Assembly: GCA_028867785.1 (NCBI GenBank)
Contig: JAGWFS010000002.1
Coordinates: 337,504-388,253, forward strand
Reading direction: 5' to 3'
DNA length: 50,750 bases
From: Nitrososphaerota archaeon
Lineage (GTDB): Archaea > Thermoproteota > Nitrososphaeria > Nitrososphaerales > Nitrosopumilaceae
The translations under genes were made by a program, and so were the position numbers. The notes under the pieces are model-generated. The model did not search any database and had not been told where the DNA came from. It was given only the letters and a program-made list of their open reading frames with translations. Positions 26,111 to 29,883 of the stretch are shown here, in pieces; position 1 is the first letter of the stretch, and each line of letters opens with the position of its first letter.

Positions 26111-26439
26111 GGCGAGTGATGGAACACGCTTTCATATAATTTAAAAGCCTGAATCCTACCAACCTGTCAAATCTCATCCAGGGTTAAGATTTATCGATAA
26201 TTCAGGCGCTTGCAGGCCACTTGTCAAATCCTGTCTTTGTTTTACTGCCATACAAACTGTAGCTCCAAGATTTCCAGTACAAAACATCAAGTACGGGGGA
26301 TTACGGCATTGGCGAGGAGTCGGCGGAGCTTGCCTGCAAACAAAGCGCATTTTTCAGCTCTGCACAATGCGTTTGTTCTAGACAGACAAGGTACTATATG
26401 GAAACGCCCTGCATGCAAATCAGATAAAGCTTGGGTGGT
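26111..26439. other. intergenic region with promoter element for the gene at 26440
   Basis: About 330 bases between divergent genes. The only feature I can support is the promoter-like ACAAGGTACTATATGGAA at 26386-26403, shared with the element at 481-498. Open frames on both strands here have no domain resemblance. Confidence 0.5.
26386..26403 (+). promoter_or_regulatory. TATA-like promoter element shared with 481-498
   Basis: 17 of 18 bases match the element upstream of the receiver relic at 528. It lies 37 bases before ATG 26440. The shared unit of promoter plus receiver start suggests a duplicated 5' region. Confidence 0.45.
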
Positions 26440-27765
26440 ATGAGAATACTTGTCGCCGAAGACAATCAGGACGCAGCCGACATATACAAAAGTACACTTG
26501 AAAATAGGGGCCATATAGTTACAATGGCAAGAGACGGCGGCAGATGCCTTCAAACATATTTTGATCACATGAAAAAAAATGATCATGGAATACTTTTTGA
26601 TGTAATAATATTAGATCAGCAAATGCCCGACATGAGCGGCATAGATGTTGCCAAGGAAATTCAGAGGGCCAACCCAAAACAGAGAATAATCTTCATTACT
26701 GGATACGGGGTTGAGATTTTCGAAAAATTGAAGGACCTCAAAGAAAAAGTCGAGATCATGAACAAACCGCTTGCATTAAAAGCATTAATTGCTCAAATTG
26801 AGGGATATTCGACACAAAAAGAGGATGGGCCTCACATGAAAACTGGCAATGAGGCTCACAAGAGACCGGCAAATCTACAACCATCAGAGACGCACAAGAT
26901 GAACTCTAACCAGTTACTTGATTACGTACCACCTGAAGAGATCGTCAATAGGATCAGAAGGGAAAACATGGTACTGCATGGTAGTACGGCAGTAAAAAAA
27001 TCAAAACCAAAGATTAATGCAAAAAATATGCTTAAAGCAGAATTTATTGCACTGCCAGTACTTGCAGTCCTGTTTTTCTACGCAATTGACAACTATTATC
27101 AATCTAACCAGTTTGGCATTTTTCCATATGTCATGGCAAGTTATTCCGTGGAGGATCTTCAGGGTCAAACAAGCGCCGTTCATCACTGGCATATTGCCAA
27201 AGAAACCCCTTTAACGGTAAGCATAGTGAACCTAGGCAACCTAAGCCAAGAAAAAGTCAACATTATCAAAGATTCCATCCTTTCAACAGACGTATTGCAC
27301 GTTGACAATTCATTTCTTGGCGGAATTGTATCAGGTAAAAAATCAGAATATTTCATAGGTTGGAAAGGAGCGCTAGATGTGATAAATGACACAAAGTTTT
27401 ACATACCAAATCAATTCAATATCGTAGACTCGCCTAACAGCCCAAGTCAGATTGCGATATTTTTATCAAATAGTAAAAACCCAGATGGCTACTCTGCATA
27501 TACAAAGATGGTTGTGGCTAATTCTCAGATCTTGAAATCTTTTATTACCATTTATGATGCAGACAAGTTTTCTGACATCCAGCTTGCAGAAATATCAAGG
27601 CATGAGTTTGGCCGTGCCTTGGGCCTTGGGAATTCTAATGGATCTCAAGATGTCATGAATGATACGATTCAGGCAAATCACCAGTACATATCAGAGTGCG
27701 ATGTTGCTGCAATACAGTCGTTGTATGACGGAAACATTCAGAACAAATGGTCCTGCGATACCTGA
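26440..27765 (+). CDS. receiver domain fused through a membrane helix to a matrixin-like domain with incomplete zinc site
   Basis: A 441-residue fusion. Residues 1-120 are a CheY-like receiver: 'VAEDNQDA', phosphoacceptor in 'VIILDQQMPDMSG', Thr in 'FITGYG' and Lys in 'IMNKPLA'. A ~80-residue basic linker leads to one transmembrane helix ('FIALPVLAVLFFYAI', about residues 207-221). The remaining ~215 residues would lie outside. Their end reads 'EISRHEFGRALGLGNSNGS' then 'DVMND', the frame of a matrixin metalloprotease (HExxHxxGxxH plus Met-turn) with the second and third zinc His replaced by Arg and Asn. So it is probably catalytically dead. It may relay phosphorylation to an extracellular binding function. 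The frame also offers TTG 26431; ATG 26440 is preferred. Confidence 0.75.
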   Translation: MRILVAEDNQDAADIYKSTLENRGHIVTMARDGGRCLQTYFDHMKKNDHGILFDVIILDQQMPDMSGIDVAKEIQRANPKQRIIFITGYGVEIFEKLKDLKEKVEIMNKPLALKALIAQIEGYSTQKEDGPHMKTGNEAHKRPANLQPSETHKMNSNQLLDYVPPEEIVNRIRRENMVLHGSTAVKKSKPKINAKNMLKAEFIALPVLAVLFFYAIDNYYQSNQFGIFPYVMASYSVEDLQGQTSAVHHWHIAKETPLTVSIVNLGNLSQEKVNIIKDSILSTDVLHVDNSFLGGIVSGKKSEYFIGWKGALDVINDTKFYIPNQFNIVDSPNSPSQIAIFLSNSKNPDGYSAYTKMVVANSQILKSFITIYDADKFSDIQLAEISRHEFGRALGLGNSNGSQDVMNDTIQANHQYISECDVAAIQSLYDGNIQNKWSCDT

Positions 27766-28481: not shown

Positions 28482-29759
28482 CTAGGCCTTGAGATTCGAT
28501 ATTTGCACCAGGTGTCTTGAAAAATATATCGGATAGATTTCTCCAGTTCCCGGATGAGTGTAATTCCATCTTTTATCGTCAGGGTTGATTTTTGTGAACT
28601 GCTCTGCAAACTCGGAAGAGAGCAGCCCATATGCTGCACTGCCAATCGTTGTTTGATTTGGCTGGGCAAGCGGCAGTATTTTGGATGCTATTGTGATGCT
28701 GTGTCCAATCAAATCCGGATCCGAACCGAGAAAGACTATCCTGTTCTTTCCCGCATCAATGCCTATTCTCACACTGATGGTCGGCAGACCAAGGCTTGCA
28801 AAGATTGGATTGATGGAATATTTTATCAGCATATTCATCGAGTTTGCGCATCTTACGGCATTTTCTGCCATGTTTCCAAATTCCTTGAGCTCTGGAAAGA
28901 AGGCAATCACCGCGTCTCCCGCGTACTTTAACACAAATCCTGCATGTTTTGACACTATGACAGACATTTCCTCTGAGAATACCTTGATGAGGCCCGAGAG
29001 CTCCTCTGAGCTGAGAAGCGTTGCAAGCTTTGTAGAGCCCACTATGTCCACATACAGGACTGCAACATTGATTTCCTGCTCCGGCCACAGGCTGAGAAAC
29101 CTGCTTGCGACGTATTTTAGAAAAGCCTGGGAATACGAATCAGACATTTTCATCTTATACAGGGAAAAGTTTCTCTTCACCCTGGTCATGCTCTCTATTA
29201 CTACGGCGTCATCGGCAGAAAGAATCTGGAACCTCTCAATAGGTTTGACATGGTATATCACGGACTCCAGCACGTTTAGCGGGACAAACTTCTTCTCAAG
29301 TACGTCATAGTACCCCTTTTCGCCCTCAATTTGCGGAGGCACAACCTTCATGTTTTCGGTAGCAAAGCCAAACGGAAAAGACGTGTTCTGGTTCTTGGCA
29401 GCGGTCAGTATGACGCCATCATACTCGTTTAGGGCCAGTGCCTGCTCATTTTCCACCCCGGAGCCGATATCTATCACCCGGGATACCTGGAATATGGTAA
29501 TCTTGCCTGTTTTTGAGTTTGATTTTAGTATCTCAACCACGTCGTTTTCAATGTTGTCTGGAACTGTCACCTGCACAACATACTTGTCCTGAAACTCCGA
29601 GCGGTACATCTCCGTGCCTTTTGCGGCATGAACTTTCGAGCCAACGCCTTTCCCCCTTCCCCTGACCTTTGATACGTTCACAGATACGTCTATTATCCTA
29701 AGCGCGTCGCTTACGCCCATCAGATCATTTCTAGGAACTTCTGCCTCAATTCGTATCAT
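28482..29759 (-). CDS. PII-like domain fused to a class III nucleotide cyclase domain
   Basis: A 425-residue protein. Residues ~1-105 resemble PII signal proteins (GlnB/GlnK): 'VSVNVSKVRGRGKGVG' then 'KGTEMYRSEF' in T-loop position, 'YVVQVTVPDN', and 'SKTGKITIFQVSRVIDIGSG' as the B/C-loop and final strand. Residues ~228-375 are a class III adenylate/guanylate cyclase domain: first metal Asp238 in 'YVDIVGSTK', Lys278 and second metal Asp282 in 'LKYAGDAVIAF', and 'SVRIGIDAG'. The transition-state Asn and Arg positions read Thr356 and Lys360 ('IGHSITIASK'), so activity may be altered. No transmembrane helix. It could convert nitrogen or energy status into a cyclic nucleotide signal. Convergent with purE. 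Confidence 0.78.
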   Translation of the reverse strand: MIRIEAEVPRNDLMGVSDALRIIDVSVNVSKVRGRGKGVGSKVHAAKGTEMYRSEFQDKYVVQVTVPDNIENDVVEILKSNSKTGKITIFQVSRVIDIGSGVENEQALALNEYDGVILTAAKNQNTSFPFGFATENMKVVPPQIEGEKGYYDVLEKKFVPLNVLESVIYHVKPIERFQILSADDAVVIESMTRVKRNFSLYKMKMSDSYSQAFLKYVASRFLSLWPEQEINVAVLYVDIVGSTKLATLLSSEELSGLIKVFSEEMSVIVSKHAGFVLKYAGDAVIAFFPELKEFGNMAENAVRCANSMNMLIKYSINPIFASLGLPTISVRIGIDAGKNRIVFLGSDPDLIGHSITIASKILPLAQPNQTTIGSAAYGLLSSEFAEQFTKINPDDKRWNYTHPGTGEIYPIYFSRHLVQISNLKA

Positions 29760-29883
29760 TAGTCCGGTCTAGGTCAAATGCCACATCTGCCAAATTTAAA
29801 TCAGCGTGTGATTTTCATTGCTGTCTTGCAGATATCGCTCTGAAAGATTTACACTGGATGAAATGGATTTGAATCGATGTTTT

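Follow-up and report, generated by a model that had tools for sequence, protein, structure and literature searches.

PII proteins of the GlnB/GlnK type are homotrimers with a ligand cleft between the subunits; the T-loop serves as their contact element, positions 7, 29 and 64 (GlnB numbering) line the adenine pocket, and the glnK gene adjoins amtB. Gln39 is a direct Mg/2-oxoglutarate ligand, and binding of 2-oxoglutarate has been assigned to this residue together with MgATP (PMC3198391), while the TGxxGDGKI motif has been called essential for ATP binding in PII (PMC4316997). A review (PMC10432482) classes the Amt-linked PII proteins of ammonia-oxidizing archaea among glnK/glnB-type regulators. 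SbtB and PstA retain a PII core from which the classical ATP/2-oxoglutarate residues are gone and use other signals; both are separate short proteins with loop structures of their own. Among class III nucleotide cyclases, a Lys/Asp pair specifies ATP, and Ma1120, in which Ala takes the place of the transition-state Asn and the Arg is kept, is an active enzyme (PMC4215837). Here we describe an archaeal gene that places a PII-like domain in front of a class III cyclase domain in a single chain. Both domains are known, and their combination is new relative to the open-licence papers searched, which contained neither a PII-cyclase combination nor, as the preliminary description of this DNA had supposed, any archaeal system of such a type.

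The gene lies in a window of 50,750 nucleotides, by which we mean the whole stretch of DNA analysed, from a genome of the genus Candidatus Nitrosotalea, ammonia-oxidizing archaea of acid soils; one of the orthologues of the gene comes from Nitrosotalea sp. TS. It is an uninterrupted open reading frame of 425 amino acids on the minus strand (28482..29759) with Pfam matches to P-II and Guanylate_cyc, and all features of the gene given below lie on this strand. The PII-like domain comprises residues 1-105 (29445..29759) and, by alignment, contains a T-loop at residues 36-59 (GKGVGSKVHAAKGTEMYRSEFQDK; 29583..29654) and a truncated B-loop at residues 82-90 (SKTGKITIF; 29490..29516), five residues shorter than the QTGKIGDGKIF of GlnB. 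It is followed by a linker and middle segment, hereafter MID (residues 106-228; 29076..29444), to which no Pfam family could be matched, and by the class III nucleotide cyclase domain (residues 229-415; 28515..29075), delimited by Pfam, PDB matches and orthologue alignment. Comparison of upstream sequences revealed a TATA-like box (TTTAAATTT; 29792..29800) approximately 37 nt upstream of the ATG, the TTAAATT core of which is found at this distance in all 11 orthologues of the fusion gene. Elsewhere in the window, an open reading frame on the plus strand (26431-27765) combines a response-regulator receiver, a hydrophobic stretch and a matrixin-like (Peptidase_M10) domain; among the syntenic loci a clear counterpart of this frame was seen only in L037 (61%).

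Across 37 Nitrosotalea genomes, 19 of which are at least 90% complete, the full-length fusion was present in 23, including 15 of the 19 more complete ones. A broken copy was counted in genome G203; the broken copy of Nitrosotalea sp. TS (L047:3447-4714), split into separate open reading frames by either sequencing error or genuine decay, was treated as an exception. Outside the genus no fusion was seen among the listed matches to 200 sampled genomes of the class, the relatives there being cyclases without a PII domain. The full-length copies are 71-96% identical across the genus and every segment shows far more synonymous than non-synonymous change, from which it follows that the reading frame is, as judged by comparison, more than a chance occurrence. 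Where dS was unsaturated, dN/dS relative to the window copy was approximately 0.02-0.04, the PII part included, with a single linker value of 0.07, and the fusion is thus under strong purifying selection. An assembly artefact, a pseudogene or a chance reading frame was rejected on the grounds that the fusion is intact in 23 genomes and strongly selected.

The N-terminal domain has the PII fold. Pfam P-II (PF00543) matched residues 2-98, scoring 23.9 bits (E 5e-5) in one search and 28.1 bits in another against a cut-off of 25 bits, and residues 1-112 matched E. coli GlnB (E 1.3e-6). In an AlphaFold2 model of residues 1-112 the beta-alpha-beta-beta-alpha-beta core exceeded a pLDDT of 90, the T-loop and the last residues being uncertain, and all 50 Foldseek matches listed for this model were PII or GlnK proteins (TM up to 0.81 at 1.9 A; E 9e-8). 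The full-length model, built from 11 close orthologues, was of low confidence (pLDDT 42, pTM 0.27); the domain arrangement was not read from it, and our structural statements rest on the separate model of residues 1-112. Of 80 archaeal PII sequences that were aligned, 75 (22 fused and 53 stand-alone) have a B-loop lacking five residues relative to GlnB, and the fused domains formed one clade inside this subfamily. For the stand-alone members an Amt gene lies within 1.5 kb in 30 of 32 loci, Nitrosopumilaceae and Nitrososphaeraceae included, much as glnK neighbours amtB. The PII domain of the fusion is therefore placed, by its sequence, in a subfamily of ammonia-oxidizing archaea normally encoded beside Amt.

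The domain resembles GlnB/GlnK in its fold, its T-loop and an overall identity of approximately 30%, but it differs at the residues that bind the classical ligands and in carrying a C-terminal cyclase. In the alignment of the 22 fusions, Gln39 is replaced by Thr, Gly or Phe; the TGxxGDGK B-loop is not intact, owing to the five-residue deletion common to all 75 subfamily members; the C-loop arginines Arg101 and Arg103 are missing from all 22 fused domains; and the adenine-pocket residues I7, T29 and V64 have become Glu, Asn and Thr in every one. Loss of Gln39 and of the C-loop Arg pair, like that of the five B-loop residues, is a trait of the subfamily, to which the fused copies add the exchanges in the adenine pocket. 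The canonical-type PII proteins of the same genome retain TGxxG(D/E)GK. With Gln39, the ATP motif and the C-loop arginines lost and the adenine pocket changed, classical sensing of ATP and 2-oxoglutarate by the fused domain is unlikely, and, since two defining ligand features of the PII family, the TGxxGDGK B-loop for ATP and Gln39 with Lys58 for 2-oxoglutarate, are not preserved intact, the domain should be called PII-like. The preliminary description had rightly recognized that this thaumarchaeal chain joins a PII fold to a class III cyclase, and the structure prediction against GlnK that it proposed recovered that fold; of the B-loop it reported, the TGKI is real but its surroundings are five residues short, and its proposal that the domain senses 2-oxoglutarate and adenine nucleotides finds no support in these residues. 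A cyclase switched allosterically by MgATP/ADP and 2-oxoglutarate, which would join nitrogen and energy status to cAMP, can still point to the clear fold and to the retained equivalents of GlnB Lys58 (K59; Lys in 21 fusions, Arg in one) and Lys90, but in view of the losses listed above we regard it as very improbable.

The former adenine pocket could instead have been re-specified. Residues E7, N28 and T65 are invariant in the fusions and absent from the stand-alone relatives, apart from a single Thr at position 64, as would be expected if the cleft between subunits had been remodelled and the PII-like core now sensed a different small molecule, such as cAMP, the product, in a feedback loop, or some other metabolite. 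The PII-like protein SbtB offers a precedent for cAMP sensing (Selim 2018, cited in PMC10117731). The sequence, however, names no ligand, SbtB itself differs in sequence, and the exchanges could merely reflect packing; we consider this explanation unlikely.

The T-loop has fared differently. It is of full length, in contrast to the loops of SbtB and PstA, and almost invariant across the 22 fusions, VHAAKGT and RSE being fully so; it is thus under constraint while the classical sensor features have been lost. Moreover, the fusion occurs together with a particular Amt. At L117:13191-15266 two tandem short-B-loop PII-like genes, P1 and P2, lie beside the Amt1 gene, and in each of the 19 genomes of at least 90% completeness the fusion, P1 and P2, and Amt1 were either all present (15 genomes, with Amt1 87-100% identical to the copy in the genome of the window) or all absent (G097, G106, G116 and G125), with no mixed cases; Amt2 was retained in all four of the latter. 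In G116 and G097 the empty site is intact between o193 and purE, and with these flanking genes in place the absence of the fusion is real. Placed on gene trees, the pattern requires four changes of presence or absence with Amt2 and five with PurK, three of them on well-supported branches; a sign test gave p 0.25, three or four independent changes being too few for significance. The fusion adjoins purE in convergent orientation, by which an operon with purE was rejected, and the Amt1-P1-P2 cluster is approximately 68 kb away, so that fusion and cluster are not linked as an operon. In genome G129 a separate MID-cyclase gene and a gene for a GvpD/KaiC-like ATPase are clustered with P1, P2 and Amt1, which makes it plausible that the fusion arose from an Amt1-P1-P2-MID-cyclase cluster of this kind. 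The pair of Amt and PII-like genes is also present in other genera without the fusion.

These observations bear on whether the PII-like domain might be a scaffold only, serving trimerization or localization, with the cyclase either unregulated by it or regulated via MID. Such a role would fit the loss of the classical ligand sites and the frequent occurrence, in other genera, of stand-alone MID-cyclases that lack a PII domain and lie beside other genes. A mere scaffold would need neither a nearly invariant T-loop nor joint retention and loss with Amt1 and P1/P2, and we judge this role decidedly improbable.

Turning to the C-terminal part, Pfam Guanylate_cyc (PF00211) covers residues 229-388 above its cut-off (E 2.4e-9), and class III cyclases in the PDB match with an E-value of 2e-9. 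The metal-binding residues D238 and D282 are invariant in the orthologues, and the base-specifying pair K278/D349 is the standard Lys/Asp of adenylate cyclases. At the positions of the transition-state Asn and Arg, the canonical pair is replaced by T356 and K360, likewise invariant in the orthologues, which by sequence makes the domain a class III member with an atypical transition-state pair. In these respects it shares with Spirulina CyaC and Pseudomonas CyaB the catalytic domain, the two metal Asp and the base-specifying Lys/Asp (Lys/Thr in CyaC), and departs from them in the Thr/Lys pair and in a sensor of PII fold, not GAF, PAS or receiver. The metal and base-specifying residues are Asp, Lys, Asp, Asp (DKDD) throughout the 46 relatives examined, whose Asn position is occupied by Ser, Thr or Asn and whose Arg position by Lys; the exchange of Arg for Lys is accordingly, on this alignment, a trait of the whole family and not a sign of decay of the fusion gene. 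The cyclase is probably of the adenylate type, with cAMP as its likely product.

Both metal Asp and the Thr/Lys pair had been read correctly in the preliminary description, although the pair is not special to this protein. Neither outcome that this description had named as refuting it was obtained, the N-terminus having a PII fold and the cyclase with its two metal Asp being conserved in the orthologues. The idea of an unusual product has been weakened by the standard ATP pair, and that of lost activity survives in part, as Thr and Lys in place of Asn and Arg could lower or abolish catalysis. If the domain were catalytically dead, it would act as a nucleotide-binding signalling scaffold, a pseudo-cyclase, a possibility in keeping with the Thr/Lys exchange and with our failure to find a CNB-type cAMP receptor (PF00027) in the genome of the window. 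The metal Asp and the Lys/Asp pair are nevertheless invariant among the 46 relatives, Lys preserves the charge of Arg, and Ma1120 is active with Ala for Asn, though it retains its Arg; we consider a dead cyclase rather improbable.

Archaeal class III cyclases have been considered rare (PMC8646023), yet 155 of the 200 genomes sampled from the class contain a match to the fusion protein, mostly to its cyclase part. From residue ~126 onward MID is common to the stand-alone MID-cyclase proteins of other Nitrososphaeria, which over residues ~126-415 are 34-52% identical to the fusion and carry the same DKDD..K catalytic set, but are without the PII domain and often lie beside a GvpD/KaiC-like ATPase gene, once beside an H-NOX gene. 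In several genera the stand-alone MID-cyclase genes adjoin this ATPase gene or lie within approximately 2 kb of it (L118, L119, L122, L123, L124, L126). As a shared effector the ATPase was rejected, being absent from the genome of the window at an E-value of 1e-30. PF00027 was found in 15 of 150 class genomes, none of those listed belonging to Nitrosotalea. The H-NOX (Haem-NO-binding) gene (PF07700, E 2.7e-23) is located in Nitrosotalea genome G106, directly upstream of genes for a stand-alone MID-cyclase and for a GvpD/KaiC-like ATPase on the same strand (L118:6798-9891, minus strand); its product contains IHKEV, NPP and YHSSLR, the last resembling Y-x-S-x-R with the Arg one place late, and H-NOX was detected in three of the 200 class genomes, all three Nitrosotalea. 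On contig C283 of the genome of the window (L057:317-2655) two neighbouring cyclase-like genes were observed, the second a frame of 470 amino acids with an extra C-terminal part.

The reading that we favour, at somewhat less than even confidence, is that the fusion is a cyclase of the cAMP type which protein contact couples to the Amt1/PII-like system. The PII-like domain would then be a protein-contact module and not a sensor of 2-oxoglutarate and ATP. The protein may form a trimer through its PII core, perhaps mixed with the stand-alone paralogues P1 and P2, and the conserved T-loop may touch Amt1 or Amt1-bound P1/P2; this contact would govern the frequency with which the cyclase domains associate and produce cAMP, and the cell could thereby convert the transport or supply of ammonium into a second-messenger signal. 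A previously undescribed second-messenger pathway of Nitrosotalea, in which a PII-like domain no longer responsive to 2-oxoglutarate or ATP reads the state of the ammonium transporter and directs cAMP synthesis within its own chain, with a non-CNB receptor for the product, is conceivable but doubtful.

Ammonia-oxidizing archaea live on ammonium, yet little is known of the way in which they sense it; the open-licence literature searched held no cyclic-nucleotide pathway linked to ammonium sensing in these organisms. The presence and absence of the fusion together with Amt1 suggests that in archaea the uptake of ammonium is connected with a second messenger in a way not described before. The fusion also suggests that the Amt-linked PII proteins of ammonia-oxidizing archaea, for all their glnK/glnB-type label, are without the classical 2-oxoglutarate/ATP residues and merit re-examination. 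It unites an ATP-type cyclase with an Amt-linked PII-like domain in the same polypeptide, and the question may thus be put to a single purified protein.
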